A stretch of 64,000 bases of DNA, from contig NZ_QGDU01000003.1 in NCBI RefSeq assembly GCF_003149045.1, positions 62,001 through 126,000 of the forward strand, in the 5' to 3' direction. Within the stretch, counting starts at the first letter, position 1. Each line of letters starts with the position of its first letter. Under the pieces are notes generated by a model, which worked only from the letters and a program-made list of their open reading frames with translations, made no database searches and was not told where the DNA came from. Of this stretch, positions 1,384 to 42,642 are shown piece after piece. The position numbers and the translations under genes were made by a program. The DNA comes from Fibrobacter sp. UWR4 (GTDB lineage: Bacteria > Fibrobacterota > Fibrobacteria > Fibrobacterales > Fibrobacteraceae).

Positions 1384-3598
1384 TCTTGACGGAAATAAAT
1401 TTCCGATTTACACGAATAATATTAAGGTTGAAATTGACCGCAAGAAGGTAGATGAAAAATTTGTCGTGTACCAGATTGCAACAAAGGATCTCTTTTTGAA
1501 AGAGAATGTTTTAGACTTGCCTGCTGAACAATTTAAGGCACAATCCGTCGCATATTATCAAAAAACACGATGGTTTGCCATGTTTAATAAGGGTAATGTC
1601 AACTTTGACAAGTTTAAACAAGAAATTCAGGCAAAGGACGATTCTGCGGTCGCAAATGAGGTGGACCTTTTTTGTCAAGATGAAACCTCCAAAGAAGGAA
1701 TTAAGGATGTTGAACTTGCACAGTTGCTGGTGAATTCGCTTAAGAATCGTTCAAGCGATATATTTGCATATAACAACATTACTGGTAAATTGTATTATTC
1801 ACCTGTCATTAAACCAAATGCAAAAACAATTGAGTTTCTGAGAATCCGTTTTTTTACTGCTTTAAATTCAATTTTTTTGGAAGCCAATACAGAAACTTTT
1901 TCCGAAGTCAATGCTTTAAAAAAATACGGCAAACGAAATGTTGAACCGAAGTTCCTTTTTGATGAAGAAACTGGAGAATTTCGTCGAAAACTTCATGCTG
2001 ATTTAAAGAAAGGTCAATATTTCTTCGACCAGGGCGCTCTAAGTAAAAAGGGACCAAGAAAAAAGTTTTTGGATTTTTTGTCCAGAGATAACTATAGAAA
2101 GTCAAAGGCCGGAATTATTGCAACGTTCCTTGAAGATGTGAAAGAGAATCTTTCCGATTTCATCACTATTGAACAGATTCCATTTATGAATTATGAAAAT
2201 TGTGAACAGAAACGAATTAATTACGAAAACTATGATTATGGAACCTTTGTAAATAAGAATGGAATTTGTGTCGTAAATACAATTCCAAATAGAACCGATG
2301 CTAAGGAAATGCAATCGCGGATTGTGAATTTTTTGAAGTCTGAATATGGCGTGGAATCTGTTCCGGATAATCGTGAAAAAGGAAAATACATCATTGAAAT
2401 TATTCACGATAAAGAATCTGATGAGTATGCGACTGCAGAAGAGGCCGCTTCACTAAATCTTTTTAACGAGTTCAACAAGCCTCAAGATCAGCACAATCTT
2501 TTTTCTGAAAACGAAATTATTCAACATATCACGGTAGAAAACTCTGCTGAAAAGGTCAATTCCGATACACTAAAAGATGTAATGCGCAATATAGTGCAAG
2601 AACTCATTATTAAAGGCGATGTTGTTAATCGTCAGATTACACTTGTGAATTGGAATGAACCAAAGGAATGGACGTTTGTAAAATGTGGAAAAGGGAAATG
2701 GAATGAGGCAAAGCGGTGCAATAGTTTTCGCTATTATAAAATGAAAATTTGTACTGATGGAAAATTAAATTTTGATGTTTTTGACAACCGGGAATATCCG
2801 GAAAATGATGAGTGGAATGTATTGGATCGAATCTTTGGATATTACAACAAAGGCTTTAAGAACAAATCTTCGGGCATTGAATGTATCGTATACAACGACA
2901 TAAATAACATAAATGTCATCTATAAAACTAAGCAATTCACTTTGCTTGATGTTGAAGAAATTTTAAGGACGCTTTCGCTGTCTGATAGTGAAAATAAAAT
3001 TGATAAGAATCGTCTTGAAAATTATCTAGATGATTTTATTGAAATACATGAGAATTTGACTGATAAACAGCAGAATGAACTGAATGACCTAAGGAAAAAT
3101 ATTCATAACTCGTTTGATAAGGAACTCTCATACAAAGATGTCTTGAACATGTATGATTCAGAGGGAAAAAAACATTCGCTAATTAAGAAGAAAATTATAA
3201 GCGATTTTGTTTACTGGCTTTATGATGTTTCTTCTGAAGATGGAAACCCTGTTCTTTTGCACGGTCAAATGAAAAGCGGGGATAATCTCTATAAAAATTT
3301 CAATTCATTCCTTGGAATAAAGTCAATAACACTTGATGGTCAATTCAAGTATTTCGTTGGAAAGAAAAAGGAGGCGTTGCAGAGTAATCTTCCTACGTCC
3401 TGCGTTATTCGTGATGTGATTTCATGGAACAAGAACGGCGTAAATAAGGGAGGCCCAATATTCTTTAATGAACTTGAACATATGTTATCTGTGGAATTCG
3501 TGAGAAACGGACAATATACCGTCATACCATTCCCGATGAAGTACTTAAATGAATACGTTCGTTTTTGCGAAAAAGACGAAGACTTTGGGGAAGATTAA
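1373..3598 (+). CDS. Large protein of unknown family, partner of the helicase-nuclease
   Basis: This is a 741-residue soluble protein starting at an ATG inside the 3' end of the helicase gene (11-base overlap), which indicates tight co-expression. I do not recognise its family. It has no signal peptide or membrane segment and is rich in Lys, Asn and Glu. An acidic, low-complexity stretch lies near residues 340-390. The C-terminal third carries a conserved-looking block (VIRDVISWNKNGVNKGGPIF). An Argonaute/PIWI-like or effector role was considered but no catalytic signature is visible. AT-rich composition and position in a decayed accessory island fit a transferred defence operon. A good ribosome-binding site follows its stop codon, suggesting a third gene once followed. 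Confidence 0.6.
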   Translation: MANNLDGNKFPIYTNNIKVEIDRKKVDEKFVVYQIATKDLFLKENVLDLPAEQFKAQSVAYYQKTRWFAMFNKGNVNFDKFKQEIQAKDDSAVANEVDLFCQDETSKEGIKDVELAQLLVNSLKNRSSDIFAYNNITGKLYYSPVIKPNAKTIEFLRIRFFTALNSIFLEANTETFSEVNALKKYGKRNVEPKFLFDEETGEFRRKLHADLKKGQYFFDQGALSKKGPRKKFLDFLSRDNYRKSKAGIIATFLEDVKENLSDFITIEQIPFMNYENCEQKRINYENYDYGTFVNKNGICVVNTIPNRTDAKEMQSRIVNFLKSEYGVESVPDNREKGKYIIEIIHDKESDEYATAEEAASLNLFNEFNKPQDQHNLFSENEIIQHITVENSAEKVNSDTLKDVMRNIVQELIIKGDVVNRQITLVNWNEPKEWTFVKCGKGKWNEAKRCNSFRYYKMKICTDGKLNFDVFDNREYPENDEWNVLDRIFGYYNKGFKNKSSGIECIVYNDINNINVIYKTKQFTLLDVEEILRTLSLSDSENKIDKNRLENYLDDFIEIHENLTDKQQNELNDLRKNIHNSFDKELSYKDVLNMYDSEGKKHSLIKKKIISDFVYWLYDVSSEDGNPVLLHGQMKSGDNLYKNFNSFLGIKSITLDGQFKYFVGKKKEALQSNLPTSCVIRDVISWNKNGVNKGGPIFFNELEHMLSVEFVRNGQYTVIPFPMKYLNEYVRFCEKDEDFGED

Positions 3599-3600
3599 TA

Positions 3601-3763
3601 AGGAGGTTTATCTTGTTAGCAACCCATTTATATAAGCATTCCCAGAATTGTCGAATGCGAATCCCCGTCAATGGTTGCTGCGTTCGTTGCCGGAGGCGCC
3701 CGAAACGGCCTCACCTTCTGGAAAAATAAGGACCGGAAGGAATTGAAAAGCCTCGGAAAATGA
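3601..3763 (+). pseudogene. Orphan ribosome-binding site joined to a DUF4357 C-terminal remnant
   Basis: An AGGAGG at 3601 sits six bases before a TTG (3613) that opens only a 38-codon frame, so the gene this signal served seems to be gone. Frame 3653-3763 encodes 36 residues ending in FWKNKDRKELKSLGK. These are almost identical to the last residues of the intact DUF4357 gene that ends at 6431, and the homology continues about 30 bases past both stops. This is the tail of an older DUF4357 gene whose 5' part was replaced. Confidence 0.8.
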
Positions 3764-36095: not shown

Positions 36096-36501
36096 TTTCC
36101 CTGTTTTTCATTTCGTTGCAGTTGGCCTTGTAAAGCTCTGCGCCCAAGCGCTTGATTTCGTTTAGGTGATTGTCCTTTTCAATGAGGAGTCTGTTCACAT
36201 CGATAAGGTTCTTGTGGTTTTCCTCTTTCCATTGTTCGGCTTCCTGCTTGTAACGGATTGCGACTTCTTTCCAGTTTACACCGTCATCCTGGCACAAATC
36301 TTGCGGGGGGGGGGTAAAAATTTTCTGGAGTGTTTCAAAAGCGGATTTTGCCTTATGGAAAAGCTCGCTTTCATGGGCATTATTGAGCGCCATTCGTTCA
36401 TGCAGTTTCAGGGCGTAACGGATAAGAGTCTGTTCGAAGAGGGTGTGTCCTTCTTCCTTTGCCAGCTGCTTGAGCTTTTTTCTGTTGAGTTCAATATTCA
36501 T
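36076..36501 (-). CDS. Hypothetical phage protein, 141 residues
   Basis: The start MNIELNRKKLKQLAKEEGHT resembles the opening of the 95-residue gene at 43372-43659 (LKKLASEPGHT, both followed by FEQTLIRYALKLHERM or LEKQLIVYAQHLCQRI). The two share an N-terminal module. The rest is a coiled coil. Function unknown. Overlaps its neighbours on both sides. Confidence 0.65.
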   Translation of the reverse strand: MNIELNRKKLKQLAKEEGHTLFEQTLIRYALKLHERMALNNAHESELFHKAKSAFETLQKIFTPPPQDLCQDDGVNWKEVAIRYKQEAEQWKEENHKNLIDVNRLLIEKDNHLNEIKRLGAELYKANCNEMKNRENETDQI

Positions 36502-36698
36502 GGTTGTTTTCCTTTCCGTAGTTCACGGATCGTCTGTTTGAGTTGGAGTATGGTGTTGTGTTGCTGCTTACGGATGCTTTCGCTTTCGTTTAGCTTTCTC
36601 TGGAGGTTCCTAAACCCCGTTTTAAGGGTCTTGAAGCTTGCCGAAAGGTCTGTAAAAAGCCGCTTGTACTTCTGGATTTCTTCCTGGTAGTCGTTCAT
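36498..36698 (-). CDS. Small coiled-coil protein, 66 residues
   Basis: ATG 36698 starts MNDYQEEIQKYKRLFTDLSA. The frame is open upstream but would run into the amidase gene. It is almost entirely a basic coiled coil. Next to the endolysin and overlapping the next ORF; the role is unknown. Confidence 0.5.
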   Translation of the reverse strand: MNDYQEEIQKYKRLFTDLSASFKTLKTGFRNLQRKLNESESIRKQQHNTILQLKQTIRELRKGKQP

Positions 36699-36705
36699 GG
36701 AGAAC

Positions 36706-37242
36706 CTACAGAAGGGCGTTGACCTTGGCGGCGATGTCGAACATCCGTTCTTCAAGGTATTCGCCGGGGCATTCCTTGGCGGCGAACCACTTATGAAGCG
36801 TCATGTTCTGCTTGAGTTCACCGTCTTCGTCCACCTTGCCCATGAGTTTCTTGTCGTGGCTCCAGCGGAGTTTCTTGATGTAGTTCCTTTTGCAGATGTC
36901 GGCCACCAGGTAGATGAGGCTTGCGTAGGCTTCGTCGGTCACGGCGTAGGGTACCTTGGTGTCGCTTGCCACCTCGATGGTCACCGCCCTGTGATCATTG
37001 GCGGCGTTGGAGCTGCACCAGCTGCGGTCGGTTTCAGAGACATAGAGGCCGATGCGACCGTCGGGGCCGATACCGTAGTTGCTGGATGCCTTGCGACTCT
37101 TATCTGCAAAGAGCTTGCCCAGTGCTTCGACACTCGACTGACCCACCACGATGTGGATGGTGATCGTATCGATTTCGTGATTTCGCGGAGAGGTCCTGCT
37201 TGGGCTTATGTTGGTGTGTGATACCAGGGGACTGTTGGACAT
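36706..37242 (-). CDS. Phage N-acetylmuramoyl-L-alanine amidase (endolysin)
   Basis: ATG 37242 has GGAGG five bases before, so the long upstream extension is not real. In 178 residues the Amidase_2/PGRP fold is visible: ITIHIVVG (first zinc His), SSNYGIGPDGRIGLYVSETD, AVTIEVAS and LHKWFAAKECPGEYLEE (second His and Cys). It cuts the amide bond between muramic acid and peptide at lysis. Upstream lies a 39-residue membrane protein that could be the holin. Finding the endolysin within the early block is unlike phage Mu. Confidence 0.88.
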   Translation of the reverse strand: MSNSPLVSHTNISPSRTSPRNHEIDTITIHIVVGQSSVEALGKLFADKSRKASSNYGIGPDGRIGLYVSETDRSWCSSNAANDHRAVTIEVASDTKVPYAVTDEAYASLIYLVADICKRNYIKKLRWSHDKKLMGKVDEDGELKQNMTLHKWFAAKECPGEYLEERMFDIAAKVNALL

Positions 37243-37253
37243 TTGTTCCTCCA

Positions 37254-37373
37254 TTAGATTGTTAGCAGGAGATAGAGGGTCAGGACGATCATTCCAACAA
37301 AGGAAATGCAGTAAATGAACATCCAGGCCTTGATGAAAAAGTTCTGAATCTTTTGGCGCGTTTCCTTGGTCAT
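37254..37373 (-). CDS. 39-residue single-helix membrane protein (holin candidate)
   Basis: ATG 37373 overlaps the stop of the DUF1353 gene (ATGA). The protein has a charged start (MTKETRQKIQNFF) and one strong hydrophobic helix of about 23 residues ending LYLLLTI. It ends 11 bases before the endolysin start. Size and place fit a pinholin or holin, as inference. Confidence 0.6.
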   Translation of the reverse strand: MTKETRQKIQNFFIKAWMFIYCISFVGMIVLTLYLLLTI

Positions 37374-37879
37374 GCTGCGTATGCTGAAATGAGTCTTTTC
37401 CCGTTGAACCTCTTGATGGTTGCACCCTTGTTGTCAAGCCACTGCATCCTTACGAGGGTCTTGTTGTGGTTGTAAAGGTCGCCCTGATCGTCGTCGAGGT
37501 TGCTGTAGTGGGAGCCTGCAAAGAACTTGACGGAGTAGTAAACTGCGTTCCTCTTGACCTTGCCCATGCCTGCATTTTCAAGCATTTCAAGCAGGAGAAG
37601 GTCTGCGTATTTCTTGCTGAGGAATCCGTGGTAGTTTACATCGTGGATAAGCCAAGCCAGGGCGGTCTTCGTGTCGCCAATCTTCGGGATGAAGGGGTTC
37701 ACGATGGAGGGACCTGAACGGAAGTCAGTGAAGAATCCGGGCATGATGTCATAGACAAGAGTTCCGGGAATGTTCTTGGCCTGGATTTCGATGTGGAGCT
37801 TGTTCTTGATGCTGTAAAGCTCGGTGTTCTTGGTGTACTTTTCCCAGGTGGGGATGTCCGGGCGGTAATAAAGATTCAT
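37370..37879 (-). CDS. DUF1353 family phage protein
   Basis: ATG 37879 with AAAGGA in front. The 169-residue protein has GFFTDFRSGPSIVNPFIPK and ALAWLIHDVNYHG followed by KKYADLLLLEML, the DUF1353 pattern with its His-Asp. The family is common in phages near lysis genes; its role is unknown, and a peptidase-like activity has been guessed. Its leader carries the conserved hairpin at 37903-37964 that is also found before MuB. Confidence 0.75.
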   Translation of the reverse strand: MNLYYRPDIPTWEKYTKNTELYSIKNKLHIEIQAKNIPGTLVYDIMPGFFTDFRSGPSIVNPFIPKIGDTKTALAWLIHDVNYHGFLSKKYADLLLLEMLENAGMGKVKRNAVYYSVKFFAGSHYSNLDDDQGDLYNHNKTLVRMQWLDNKGATIKRFNGKRLISAYAA

Positions 37880-37902
37880 GGTTGTCCTTTGAAAAAGAAA
37901 TG

Positions 37903-37964
37903 GCCTCCGGCAGCGGTATATGTGTTGTGTGTTGTGTGGTGAAAGGAGAAATGCTGCCATCGGC
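37903..37964 (-). promoter_or_regulatory. Conserved leader hairpin, copy 1
   Basis: On the + strand GCC-TCC-GGCAGC (37903-37914) faces GCTGCC-ATC-GGC (37953-37964): 6-bp and 3-bp stems around a 3x3 internal loop, with GGTA and AAAT at the inner ends. The same element at 40425-40481 has GGAAGC/GCTTCC, a compensated change. Confidence 0.75.
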
Positions 37965-37980
37965 CCAGGGAGATTAGTTG

Positions 37981-38046
37981 AGGTGCAGGGGCTCGAACCC
38001 TGCCGTGCGCGTCCACTCTACCGCGCCGTGTCCACTGCAACCCCGA
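37981..38046 (-). other. tRNA-like D-arm plus T-arm element without anticodon arm
   Basis: On the - strand, GCGCG and CGCGC close a loop GTAGAGTGGA (D-arm-like). A perfect T-arm-like hairpin GCAGGG-TTCGAG-CCCCTGC follows. No acceptor stem and no anticodon arm exist. It lies between a small membrane gene and the conserved leader hairpin. Confidence 0.5.
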
Positions 38047-38051
38047 AAGAC

Positions 38052-38195
38052 CTAAAAGGTCACTGTTATAGAAAGGATTGCCGCCGCCACCCAGTAGATG
38101 ACCTTGCGGGCATCGTGGTCCACGATTCCATAGACCAGGGCCGCCAAAAGGTCAAGGATGATCAGCAGCAGGGGGAAAAGCTGGGATTTAGTCAC
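38052..38195 (-). CDS. 47-residue membrane protein
   Basis: GTG 38195 to TAG 38052 encodes two close hydrophobic helices (FPLLLIILDLLAALVYGIV and VIYWVAAAILSITVTF) joined by DHDAR. It is typical of small phage membrane proteins found between early genes. It is too short to assign; a holin or superinfection factor is possible. Confidence 0.6.
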   Translation of the reverse strand: MTKSQLFPLLLIILDLLAALVYGIVDHDARKVIYWVAAAILSITVTF

Positions 38196-38206
38196 TAGCC
38201 CTTCTC

Positions 38207-38380
38207 TCACTGGTTCGCAAGATCCTCGACGGCCTTCTGAGGGGTACTTCCTACTCCGCGAACAAGGGGCTTTCCCTGGTTCTGCTTGAGTACAACGGCA
38301 TAGCCAAAGCGAAAATCGGCTTCAAGAACAAGCTGGTCGCGAAAGAGGTCAAGGGTGCGGTAAGTTTCTGGATTAGGCAT
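38207..38380 (-). CDS. 57-residue hypothetical phage protein
   Basis: ATG 38380 overlaps the DUF3164 stop by eight bases. It reads MPNPETYRTLDLFRDQLVLE and ends GVGSTPQKAVEDLANQ, a compact alpha/beta pattern. Overlap and codon use support it as real. Function unknown. Confidence 0.6.
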   Translation of the reverse strand: MPNPETYRTLDLFRDQLVLEADFRFGYAVVLKQNQGKPLVRGVGSTPQKAVEDLANQ

Positions 38381-39023
38381 TCTTGTCCTCCTTTTCGATG
38401 TTCAGGGAAATGTCGTTGAAGTTGAGGACGATGTTTTCCCAGGCTTCGCCGGAGTCCTTTACTACCTTGCGCTTGAAGTTTATGGACTGCTTGGTGGACT
38501 TGACGATGATGGATTCCTTCAAGAGCTTCATTGCCTTCTTCCATTCGTTGTCGTCAATTTCGAGGTGCAGGAGCTTCAGGAGCATGGCGGTGTTGACGCG
38601 ACCCTGCTTATCCACGTTGAAGGCGTGAGTGATCACCTTGGAGAGGTTCTCGTCGATGCCGTTCAGACGGCCTGCGACCCACTTGTCCACGATGGTCTTG
38701 ACCATCTGCAGGCGTTCATCGAAGCCGATGTTGTCGTCAATGCGGCGCTCTACGCAGAGGCTCTTGTCGAAGTTCTGGAGAAGGATATTGCCCTTCCACT
38801 TTTCCTTGACCTTGTTTTCCTTTGCGAGTTCGTCAAGGTACTTGTCAATGGAGGCGACGATCTTCACCTTTTCGGTCGCCATCTTTTCGGAGAGCTTGAC
38901 AACGCTCTTGATGATGCTTTCTACAAGTGCGTCGCGCTTCTTGTCGATAGCGGGGATGTACTTATCGGGAACAGCCTGGCCGCGATCGTCGAGCCAATTT
39001 CCCTGGGAGTCTTTCTTTGCCAT
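38373..39023 (-). CDS. DUF3164 family phage protein
   Basis: The 216-residue protein begins KDSQGNWLDDRGQAVPDKYI and has FDKSLCVERRIDDNIGFDER and the late LLHLEIDDNEWKKAMKLLKES that mark DUF3164. The family is regularly found in the early operon of Mu-like phages beside GemA. Function unknown, probably DNA-related. Four bases downstream of gemA. Confidence 0.85.
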   Translation of the reverse strand: MAKKDSQGNWLDDRGQAVPDKYIPAIDKKRDALVESIIKSVVKLSEKMATEKVKIVASIDKYLDELAKENKVKEKWKGNILLQNFDKSLCVERRIDDNIGFDERLQMVKTIVDKWVAGRLNGIDENLSKVITHAFNVDKQGRVNTAMLLKLLHLEIDDNEWKKAMKLLKESIIVKSTKQSINFKRKVVKDSGEAWENIVLNFNDISLNIEKEDKNA

Positions 39024-39027
39024 AGTA

Positions 39028-39495
39028 TTACCTATCGGTTTGGGGTTTGTTCTTGTTGAATTGTTCTGGAGGGGTCGCCCCCATGGCCACCAGGGCCTTG
39101 ATTAGAGTCTTTGCGTCGGCCTTTCCTATCCACTGGATGCAGGACACTCCAGTGAGCCTTTCACAGAAGGCGTTCAGGGCCTTCTTGCGGGCCTCCGATG
39201 TTTCCGCCCTGGAGACTTTGGCCCACATGGCTTCTATTGCCCTGAGCTGCGCCGGTGTGGCCTTGTGCTTTGCCCGGTCGCTTAAGTCTGCAAAGCCTCG
39301 CGCCTTGCCTGCAACCTGCGAACGGAGAAGCCTTATGAGTGCTGCCCTGGTCTGTGGCGAAAGGTCCTTGGAACTCTTGACACCGTACCGGTCCATAAGC
39401 ATTGTCCTGTAGGCATCGTCATCCATACCGAGGAGCCTTGCGAGGCCGTGGATCTTCTTGAAGTCCTCGGCCCTCTTGTCTGCCGGGGTAGTCAT
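39028..39495 (-). CDS. gemA: GemA/gp16-like regulator (DUF1018)
   Basis: The 155-residue protein has KKIHGLARLLGMDDDAYRTM, SKDLSPQTRAALIRLL, ATPAQLRAIEAMWAKVS and a C-terminal CIQWIGKADAKTLIKAL. This is the order seen in Mu gp16/GemA, which affects host DNA topology genes. Its ATG overlaps the MuB stop. Family call firm; function by analogy. Confidence 0.85.
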   Translation of the reverse strand: MTTPADKRAEDFKKIHGLARLLGMDDDAYRTMLMDRYGVKSSKDLSPQTRAALIRLLRSQVAGKARGFADLSDRAKHKATPAQLRAIEAMWAKVSRAETSEARKKALNAFCERLTGVSCIQWIGKADAKTLIKALVAMGATPPEQFNKNKPQTDR

Positions 39496-40391
39496 TACTG
39501 GGCCACCACAAGCATCTGGGATGCTGCATCAAGGATTTCTGTATCGAGGGTGTCGCGGGCGTTGTTGCGCATTACCTCGGTACTCCAGAGCACAAGGTGG
39601 GAAAGCAGACGGAAGTTGCGACGGCAGAGCTTGGCGGCGTGTTCCACCACGTTGTCCTCGTACAGGCCGAAACGGCTTTCGATGTAGGCCTTGATATCGG
39701 CGTTATCCAGGAGCTTTGCACGGCAAGGGGCGGAAATGCGGGAGTTGAGCTGTGCGAAGTGCTGACGGTCGCCCTGCACGTTCTTTTCGAGGCGGGGCAT
39801 ACCACAGAGGGCAATGCCCACGCCCGCCTTGTCATGCACACGGCGGATAAGTTCCAGGGCACGGTAAGGCAGGTGTTCTGCTTCGTCAATGATGATCAGA
39901 CGACCGGAGTCCTTCAGCTTCTGGTTTACGCGGTTCAGCTTGTCGTGAAGGCTTCCGCGACCTTCAAGGGTAAGGATGTCGCAGAGTTCGTCAAAGAGCG
40001 CCTTGGCGGTATAGCCGTGATCCGCTTCCACCATGATGACGGAGGGATGGGCCTTAGCAAATGCCTTGAGGGCCGTGGTCTTGCCGCAACCCGCGTCACC
40101 GGTGAGCATTCCGCATACCTGGTGTGTCAGCACAAGGGAACAGAACTTGTGGATGGTCTTGTAGGTCTTGGTGGGGATGATGCCGTCCTTTTGGCGGCTG
40201 CGTTCGCGTTCCGCTTCCGTTGCCAGGAAGTCCTTGACCTTTGCGACGATTGCGTCCACGTCACCCGTGTAGGTGCCCTTCAGGAAGTAGCTGAGGGTCG
40301 CTGCGGAAATGCCAAGAGCCTTGGCCACCTTCGTCTGGCTTGCGCCGGTCTTTGCGATATATTCGTTGAGATTTTCAATAGTAGCTTCCAT
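39495..40391 (-). CDS. MuB-like AAA ATPase (transposition target selection)
   Basis: In 298 residues an N-terminal HTH (TKVAKALGISAATLSYFLKG) precedes an AAA core with Walker A GDAGCGKTT (98-106) and Walker B LIIIDEAEHL (164-173). The C-terminal helical part (ESRFGLYEDNVVEHAAKLCR) is typical. MuB forms filaments on target DNA and activates MuA. Its leader, about 95 bases from the preceding gene, carries the second conserved hairpin. Confidence 0.9.
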   Translation of the reverse strand: MEATIENLNEYIAKTGASQTKVAKALGISAATLSYFLKGTYTGDVDAIVAKVKDFLATEAERERSRQKDGIIPTKTYKTIHKFCSLVLTHQVCGMLTGDAGCGKTTALKAFAKAHPSVIMVEADHGYTAKALFDELCDILTLEGRGSLHDKLNRVNQKLKDSGRLIIIDEAEHLPYRALELIRRVHDKAGVGIALCGMPRLEKNVQGDRQHFAQLNSRISAPCRAKLLDNADIKAYIESRFGLYEDNVVEHAAKLCRRNFRLLSHLVLWSTEVMRNNARDTLDTEILDAASQMLVVAQ

Positions 40392-40424
40392 TCTATCCTC
40401 GATGGTTTCTGGTGTAAATGGTAA

Positions 40425-40481
40425 GCCTCCGGAAGCGGTAATGACAATGGCTACAAAGAAGGTTTAAATGCTTCCATCGGC
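40425..40481 (-). promoter_or_regulatory. Conserved leader hairpin, copy 2
   Basis: On the + strand GCC-TCC-GGAAGC (40425-40436) faces GCTTCC-ATC-GGC (40470-40481). The layout and internal loop are the same as at 37903-37964, with one compensated base pair. GCGGTA and AAATGC are conserved inside; the loop sequence is not. Confidence 0.75.
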
Positions 40482-40489
40482 TTGAAATT

Positions 40490-40684
40490 CTAAAGGTCTT
40501 TCAGGAGTTCCTTGATATCGTTCTTGACCCGATACCAGGTCCTTACTTCCGGGTTGTTCGGCCCTACAGGTACGACACCCTTGTTTTTGATAAGCATGAG
40601 CGCCATTTCGACGTGCCTCTTTTGCGTAGGTCCGGCTACAGCCCTGTAGATTCTCAGAAGTGTCGTACTATCAAACTGCTGCAT
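40490..40684 (-). CDS. 64-residue hypothetical protein between MuA and MuB genes
   Basis: The protein reads MQQFDSTTLLRIYRAVAGPT and ends RVKNDIKELLKDL. It is small and basic, and starts eight bases after the transposase stop. No family recognised. Position suggests a transposition accessory, as inference. Confidence 0.55.
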   Translation of the reverse strand: MQQFDSTTLLRIYRAVAGPTQKRHVEMALMLIKNKGVVPVGPNNPEVRTWYRVKNDIKELLKDL

Positions 40685-40692
40685 AAAGTAAC

Positions 40693-42642
40693 CTAACCGT
40701 TTGCAAGTTCATCCCAGAGATCGCTAGGTGCTTCTTCCTCGAAATCTTCACCCAGCATATTGATAAAGTCCGCATTGCCAACCAACTTGTCTGCCTTGAG
40801 AACAGATGAATCCTTGTCGTGGCGAGTAAGGTGTGTAGGCCCCTGCGGGATGAAGATGTCCTGCGGTCCAACGGCGGTGCGCATTGCCCCGATGTATTCC
40901 TCTGCCTGTTCCTTCGTCATTTCCGGGACAATCTCCTTGAGAAGATTTTCTTCGTGACGCTTGCGGGCGACACCTTCCGCGATCTGTGCCTTGCCGATGG
41001 CATCGTCATCCTTGACCATGGCACCCACGGCCTGCTGCAGCGTGCATTCGCCAATGAGCTTTCTCTGGCTATCGTATGCCCAGGCAACACGCATATCGTC
41101 AGGATCGTAGCGAAGCATGACTTCGCGGCCCTTCCACACCGGCATCCATTCGGCCCAGTACCAGGCATCCAAAGCGGCAATGTGGAAACCCATGTGGACA
41201 ATCTTCCCGGAAACAGTCCTGCTCGTGAGCAAAGACAAGGTCTCGCGGCTTACACGGCGCATAGGCTCGCGCTTTACAATGAGCTCGTTCCAGAGTTCGG
41301 AGCGGGTCTTACCCTCGTGAACCTTGCCCTGGCACGGAAGCCCGGGGAAAACCTCGCGGAGGTATCTGTCGGCAAGCTTTGCGAACTCGTCCCAGGTAAG
41401 GAAGTCGCCACTCTTGAGAACACCCTTCAAAGGCTCAGGCTTTTCGACTACGGTACCGCCCTTGAAGCTGTTGAACAGCCTATCAAAACCGTTTTTAATG
41501 ACCAAAAACTGGCGTTCAATGATCTTTGCACGGGCGTTCTTTACGATGGCGAAGTGCATCTTGATATCGAGACGGCTTGCCAGGGATTCCGTGTACTGTT
41601 CGTCTTCGACGATCTTGTGACCACGGCTCTGGCCGGAGAAATCCTTGTTTCGGTATTCGCGACCGTTATCCACGTAGATTTCTTCGGGCAGGCCATAGCG
41701 TTCAATGCCGTTGCGGATAGCGCGTAAGGTATTCTCGGTGCCCGGGCTTGTATGGTGCAGGCACCAGCCCATAGGCATATAGGTACGAAAATCCATGAAA
41801 AGGGTGATGTAGCAAGTGGCGGGCTTTTCCTGGCCGGGGACCTTCACGAAAACGTCCCATGTACGGGTATCGCCCACCCACACCTGGCCCGCGTTCATGT
41901 CTGAATAGTCGCGGTCAAGGTGGTAGCCCTTGTTGTCGTAGAACTTCTTTTTACCCTCGCGGGCAAAGTAAATCACATCCGGGGAAACTTCACGCTGGAG
42001 CCTGCGGGTAAAGGCGGACTTGCTCGGGAAATCCTTGTCTCCCTTCACTTCGCCGCGGTCAATAGCCATGCCAAGCGCAATCATGCGGGCGGAAAATACC
42101 GAGAGCTTGTTTGCAGTAAGGTATGCCTGTTTGAAGTCGTCGAACCAGCGGTCCTTCACGGTGCTGCCCATGATCTCGCGGTGGTTGATAAGGGCGATCT
42201 TGCCGAAGTCTGCTACGACGGAACGCTGGCGGTAGATACTCTGCACCGAAGTCTTCATGTCGGTGTGGCTCTGGTTCCAGCTCTCCACGAACCTTTCGAG
42301 CTCGCGCGTGCCCTGGATGCCCTCGCACTTTGACAAGATGACAGACCACTTGTCGAAATTCTTCTTGCTTCGACTTGTGGCGCGTTCATAGGCGCGGTTG
42401 GTGGACTCGATATCCTCCTGGGTAGGGGCCACTGCCTGCACCTCTTCCACCTCGGGAAGCGTCTCCAGGATATAGCGGTCGCAAGCCTCCTTCGGAAGGC
42501 TCCTGGCATTGATCTTGATCACCTTGCGGCCATTCTCCTCTTCCCACTTGTATTCCCAGAGAGAAAGCCTGTTGCGTACATGCCTCTCGGAAATCTTAAG
42601 GAGTTCGGAAACCTTAGACGTACTGATCCAAATCGGCTTCAT
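40693..42642 (-). CDS. Mu-type transposase (MuA)
   Basis: ATG 42642 (MKPIWISTSKVSELL) is taken; the frame extends 28 codons more but overlaps the previous gene. In 649 residues: an N-terminal HTH (residues 8-25), the DDE catalytic core with D258 (VWVGDTRTWD), D325 (YVDNGREYRN) and E376 (KIIERQF), and the C-terminal Mu beta-barrel (GRTVSGKI-like TSRTVSGKIVHMGFH). Spacings match Mu A. It cuts both phage ends and joins them to target DNA. Residues 620-649 end in an acidic tail that would contact MuB. Confidence 0.95.
   Translation of the reverse strand: MKPIWISTSKVSELLKISERHVRNRLSLWEYKWEEENGRKVIKINARSLPKEACDRYILETLPEVEEVQAVAPTQEDIESTNRAYERATSRSKKNFDKWSVILSKCEGIQGTRELERFVESWNQSHTDMKTSVQSIYRQRSVVADFGKIALINHREIMGSTVKDRWFDDFKQAYLTANKLSVFSARMIALGMAIDRGEVKGDKDFPSKSAFTRRLQREVSPDVIYFAREGKKKFYDNKGYHLDRDYSDMNAGQVWVGDTRTWDVFVKVPGQEKPATCYITLFMDFRTYMPMGWCLHHTSPGTENTLRAIRNGIERYGLPEEIYVDNGREYRNKDFSGQSRGHKIVEDEQYTESLASRLDIKMHFAIVKNARAKIIERQFLVIKNGFDRLFNSFKGGTVVEKPEPLKGVLKSGDFLTWDEFAKLADRYLREVFPGLPCQGKVHEGKTRSELWNELIVKREPMRRVSRETLSLLTSRTVSGKIVHMGFHIAALDAWYWAEWMPVWKGREVMLRYDPDDMRVAWAYDSQRKLIGECTLQQAVGAMVKDDDAIGKAQIAEGVARKRHEENLLKEIVPEMTKEQAEEYIGAMRTAVGPQDIFIPQGPTHLTRHDKDSSVLKADKLVGNADFINMLGEDFEEEAPSDLWDELANG

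Follow-up and report, generated by a model that had tools for sequence, protein, structure and literature searches.

RNase III cleaves the early mRNA of phage T7 at hairpins that lie between cistrons and contain internal loops, and hairpins at the 5′ end stabilise bacterial mRNAs. HK022 put and lambda nut are small RNA hairpins of phage early operons, both acting in cis. ROOL and GOLLD RNAs, which are several hundred nucleotides long and are represented in Rfam, often lie near tRNAs. The nearest published parallel known to the element reported here is the ESAS of cluster K mycobacteriophages, which has 17 bp arms separated by a 4–13 bp spacer and is linked to a 13-bp SAS that lies at the start codon; according to its authors, the observed departures do not support RNA pairing (PMC3203893).

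The window, that is, the whole 64,000-nt stretch of Fibrobacter sp. UWR4 DNA analysed here, contains two copies of a hairpin in an operon transcribed from the minus strand. Each copy occupies an intercistronic gap, one (40392–40489) between a small ORF and the gene for a MuB-like transposition ATPase, the other (37880–38051) between a small ORF and a DUF1353 gene. The features are as follows.

40490..40684, minus strand: small ORF with no assigned function, its stop codon 8 nt before the MuB hairpin
40425..40481, minus strand: MuB hairpin, with outer stem 40481–40479/40427–40425
40478–40476 and 40430–40428, minus strand: internal loop of the MuB hairpin, GAU opposite GGA
40475–40470/40436–40431 and 40469–40437, minus strand: inner stem and loop of the MuB hairpin
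39495..40391, minus strand: MuB-like transposition ATPase gene (AAA_22, TniB), with 33 nt between hairpin and start codon
37982..38042, minus strand: tRNA-like sequence just upstream of the DUF1353 hairpin, folding into an acceptor-type stem and a T-arm with no D-arm
37903..37964, minus strand: DUF1353 hairpin, with outer stem 37964–37962/37905–37903
37961–37959 and 37908–37906, minus strand: internal loop of the DUF1353 hairpin, GAU opposite GGA
37958–37953/37914–37909 and 37952–37915, minus strand: inner stem and loop of the DUF1353 hairpin
37370..37879, minus strand: DUF1353 gene, with 23 nt between hairpin and start codon

In the RNA sense, the 57-nt MuB-leader copy runs from 40481 to 40425 as GCC-GAU-GGAAGC-(33 nt)-GCUUCC-GGA-GGC, and the 62-nt DUF1353-leader copy from 37964 to 37903 as GCC-GAU-GGCAGC-(38 nt)-GCUGCC-GGA-GGC. 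On the minus (coding) strand the two share the form GCC-GAU-GGnAGC-A…ACC-GCUnCC-GGA-GGC. The first-pass annotation is borne out in where the two copies lie, in the two-sided replacement of C-G by A-U in the stem, in the 3x3 internal loop and in how long the loops are, and the transcript sense is that of the minus strand. The tRNA-like sequence before the DUF1353 hairpin receives no tRNA call from ARAGORN; its position parallels the tRNA–hairpin order found in other phages. An ATG at 37960, inside the 5′ arm of the same hairpin, lies upstream of the DUF1353 gene and in frame with it, so that an N-terminal extension starting in this GAUGG is possible. A start codon within GAUGG is rejected as the purpose of the motif, as no Shine-Dalgarno (SD) sequence accompanies it and the MuB copy opens an ORF of just eight codons.

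A strict pattern search of the whole genome (3.6 Mb) finds exactly two copies, those in the window, and the reversed control pattern has no match in the same search, which excludes a chance origin. RNAfold places the hairpin in the minimum free energy structure of both window copies. The z-score is −2.56 for the DUF1353 copy and −0.85 for the MuB copy, only the former being clearly below shuffles; folding energy alone would therefore not have decided the matter, and the relatives are decisive.

These relatives were collected by a MuB protein search and were hence unselected for the hairpin. MuB homologues at 76–100% identity, from about a dozen Fibrobacter genomes and from IMG/VR contigs, have the hairpin directly upstream of MuB. 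The exception in this identity range is L027, where the hairpin, the small gene upstream of it and the intergenic gap are all missing. At more distant MuB loci (L017, L028 and beyond), the element is absent from the upstream stretch examined. Across 15 distinct MuB-linked copies, 135 of 135 cells are paired and 7 are doubly changed, against 1.9 in shuffles, and no uncompensated pair occurs in these 15 sequences. The inner stems of L015 (GGGAGC/GCUCCC), L010 (GGGGGC/GCUCCC) and L026 (GGGGGC/GCCCCC) enclose an identical loop, so the replacement of A-U by G-C is visible with its G·U intermediate, a clear compensatory path. Compensated changes in unselected copies identify the hairpin as a structured cis-RNA element, and it is near certain that the structure is under selection, as the first-pass annotation had argued from the two window copies. 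The covariance-model search proposed there does yield more copies in Fibrobacter prophages, and of the two outcomes named there as speaking against a selected structure, an absence of further copies and uncompensated changes in homologous prophages, neither is seen.

The suggestion that the hairpin coordinates two parts of the operon finds no such backing. The DUF1353-leader copy is confined to near-identical phages (L019, L021, L064 and L065 carry near-identical copies), and most Mu-like relatives have the MuB copy alone. L027 has no element at all, and elsewhere the element stands beside unrelated genes and tRNAs.

The hairpin is not limited to Mu-like phages. Scanning viral contigs with the pattern gives intergenic copies in L067 (22 kb), L078 (54 kb), L085/L104 (20–28 kb) and L107 (36 kb), and in two jumbo-size rumen phage contigs, L115 (268 kb) and L116 (242 kb). 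In the latter two, a similar ORF end precedes the element, and the loop and stem differ, with the stem changes compensated. Matches in L066, L069, L075, L079, L095, L105, L110 and similar contigs were discarded on context, and an exact-pattern scan of genome contigs gave, among the matches listed, apparent chance matches within coding sequence. As pattern-scan matches are chosen for matching arms, they are weaker evidence of covariation than the MuB set. Covariance model R1 finds further copies in Fibrobacter genomes with the outer stem altered on both sides, carrying CCC/GGG or CAC/GUG in place of GCC/GGC, variants unreachable by the first pattern. Model R2, built after a second pattern, comprises 30 sequences (alignment A2). 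Here 270 of 270 cells are paired, 45 of them doubly changed versus 14.9 in shuffles, and the covariation score is 0.460, slid controls reaching no more than 0.102. RNAalifold recovers the same pairs from the alignment, plus one U·G.

The consensus consists of a variable outer stem of at least 3 bp and an inner stem in which GGnnGY pairs with GCnnCC. Between them, RAU stands opposite GGA in all 30 sequences (27 GAU, 3 AAU), and GGAG is invariant in the 3′ arm. Counting the internal loop, the helix is 9–17 bp long, and the whole element measures 51 to 99 bp. RAU and GGA could form two sheared purine pairs (tandem sheared G·A) followed by a U·G wobble. In a kink-turn, tandem sheared G·A adjoins a bulge of 3 nt; despite the possible tandem G·A this motif is rejected here, since 30 of 30 sequences of A2 have a symmetric, bulge-free loop (3x3, or 2x2 plus U·G). 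The terminal loop is about 27–75 nt long and poor in G (11.5%), and CCCU is enriched in it (20 of 35 loops versus 5.6 in shuffles, the copies not being independent). Of the inner GGTA/AAAT that the first-pass annotation described as kept, other copies widely retain just two parts, the A that follows the 5′ arm (29/30) and the (U)ACC that leads into the 3′ arm (ACC in 18/30).

Copies were oriented by reference to tRNAs, known genes and RBS–ATG pairs. A2 has five non-Watson-Crick cells, each of which is G·U when read on the coding strand and would be A·C on the opposite one, and of the 30 sequences 25 fold with a better z-score in the sense orientation. Both observations indicate that the selected molecule is most likely the coding-strand transcript.

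The hairpin mostly starts 3–19 nt past a stop codon, a tRNA 3′ end or another stem, with looser spacing in L078 and L012 (69 and 26 nt, respectively, by ORF scan). In single-hairpin leaders it ends 22–42 nt before the start codon. The spacing has no evident helical periodicity. At about ten loci the hairpin follows a tRNA (Thr, Met, Ser, Ile and others) and opens a hairpin array, in which the next hairpin comes a few nucleotides after the element and, in tRNA arrays, the start codon lies about 300 nt away. Module B of these arrays is a long-loop version of the hairpin element, GCACGAUGG…CCGGAGUGC. Module C is a stem of variable sequence with a 12-nt loop close to UGAACCAACGAU. Module D is about 110 nt long and is followed by the start codons of various genes. 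Module C is present in L085, L268, L279, L281, L283, L285, L290, L291, L293 and L295, and Rfam reports nothing for it in the loci scanned. In L115, L116, L078 and the MuB leaders, the element is alone with no tRNA directly before it.

Several further features accompany the arrays. Post-tRNA arrays of differing hairpins stand ahead of various early genes in L267, L268, L270, L279 and L291, and also occupy L290 (reverse complement 3245–3620), L293 (943–1310) and L261 (1501–1900); the order and content of modules vary between phages. Phage tRNAs with unusual A34 anticodons (AGU Thr, AAU Ile) are predicted at L261 1427–1497, L085 4237–4307 and L266 2288–2357. In L262, L263, L264 and L266, other near-perfect stems of ~10 bp with long CA-rich loops directly precede the element.

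Among 111 Fibrobacteraceae genomes, 20 carry the element in 1–4 copies each, representing 2 of 11 genera. The phylum set outside Fibrobacteraceae contains no further copies, and none is found in 295 Bacteroidales genomes by a search without a positive control of its own. Its link to phages rests on MuB, DUF1353 and the IMG/VR counterparts, and a prophage location is putative for some of the genome copies. Rfam 15 has no match in window positions 36500–42500 up to E 5, and at the gathering score it returns only tRNA in 16 element-bearing loci. There is no similar sequence among named phages, and no report of the hairpin element was found in the open-access literature. Together, the hairpin copies constitute a well-supported RNA family absent from Rfam. 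The host genus is an important rumen cellulose degrader whose phages are little studied, and the tRNA–hairpin arrays suggest that much of the seemingly empty intergenic sequence in these phages is structured RNA.

A role as a binding, processing or attenuation element, as first proposed, is possible. Otherwise different phages share the element, yet among the genomes searched it occurs only in Fibrobacteraceae, which suggests a host factor. The tight 5′ spacing and the sharing across phages of one host genus point to a processing or stability signal. We therefore favour, at a probability of roughly 0.35, a cis-acting intercistronic processing or stability element that is read by a Fibrobacter host factor. 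In this proposal, an RNase or RNA-binding protein of the host would recognise the G·A-interrupted helix, and the polycistronic transcript would be processed or protected at the junction. The 3′ end of the upstream gene or tRNA would be freed, the downstream message would gain a hairpin-protected 5′ end, and the loop would merely have to stay single-stranded. The G-poor loop fits this proposal, and the T7 sites and stabilising 5′ hairpins offer precedents, but as a standard RNase III site the helix would be short, ACC and CCCU in the loop, although conserved, are left unaccounted for, and one MuB relative, L027, does without the element.

A less likely role is in translation, the hairpin being bound by a regulatory protein or forming a ribosome standby structure that sets downstream initiation. 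The 22–42 nt to the start codon in single-hairpin leaders and the invariant GGAG would suit such a role, but the hairpin lies upstream of the SD sequence rather than covering it, and no start codon is within some 300 nt in tRNA arrays. Complementarity between loop and SD is at the shuffle level (4.41 versus 4.35, 17 leaders), and an SD-sequestering leader is rejected on this basis. It is unlikely that the hairpin belongs to a larger, possibly trans-acting ncRNA system in which tRNA or tRNA-like units release hairpin modules as decoys or regulators. The tRNA–hairpin–hairpin arrays, with separately conserved modules in differing orders, and the tRNA-like sequence before the DUF1353 copy speak for such a system, whereas the solitary elements that have no tRNA directly before them speak against it.

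A transcription signal, either a leaky terminator or attenuator or an antitermination site such as put/nut, is more doubtful still. Many copies have a U-rich stretch at most 10 nt downstream (U9 in L107, U6 in L078) and lie just past stop codons; however, the U tract is stem-adjacent in few copies, the loops are very long, and neither window copy receives a terminator-like call. An intrinsic terminator, which would have a GC-rich stem, a short loop and a directly following U tract, is rejected on these grounds, and a switch through pairing of the loop with the 3′ arm is marginal at most (mutually exclusive pairing 3.70 versus 3.44 in shuffles, best shuffle 3.77). A DNA-level operator, promoter or recombination site is very improbable: its inverted arms would flank a variable spacer and a few loops are promoter-like, but the half sites are asymmetric in the middle (GAT versus TCC) and yet fixed, one phage carries two different stem sequences, element length is far from constant, compensated pairs already disfavour it, the one-sided changes preserve pairing solely as coding-strand G·U, and a general promoter in the loop is not clearly above chance (3 loops score at least 9 versus 1.2 expected). 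Some loops may carry a promoter, that of L267 (1501–1559) alone having a perfect 12/12 TTGACA-N16-TATAAT.

Beyond the processing or stability reading of the single hairpin, Fibrobacter phages from Mu-like to jumbo (the host of the jumbo phages being putative) may share a toolkit of at least three small RNA modules, this hairpin among them, that have been reshuffled among tRNAs and gene starts and are recognised by a host factor specific to Fibrobacter. The odds are against this broader idea; if true, the toolkit would be a previously undescribed post-transcriptional system. The sharing of the element among different phages, with the small internal loop as its invariant part, makes it a ready bait for the protein that reads it.

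Like the RNase III sites of T7, the element is a hairpin that lies between genes of a phage operon and has an internal loop, but its helix is shorter and its loop much longer, and cleavage is putative here. It resembles put and nut as a small cis-acting RNA hairpin of phage early operons; those sites lie near the transcript start and have small fixed loops, whereas the present hairpin is found mid-operon and after tRNAs. ROOL and GOLLD (PMC12286853) are likewise structured RNAs of rumen and other phages, and differ from the hairpin, which has no Rfam match. With ESAS (PMC3203893) the element shares its specificity to phages, its inverted repeats around a spacer of varying length, its place ahead of some early-type genes in larger-than-usual gaps, and its absence from the host genome. 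An ESAS-like DNA operator, with arms diverging without RNA pairing, is disfavoured by the arms that stay paired in the A2 and MuB sets. In contrast to ESAS (PMC3203893), our hairpin has a long spacer and an internal loop, and keeps its pairing through covariation.
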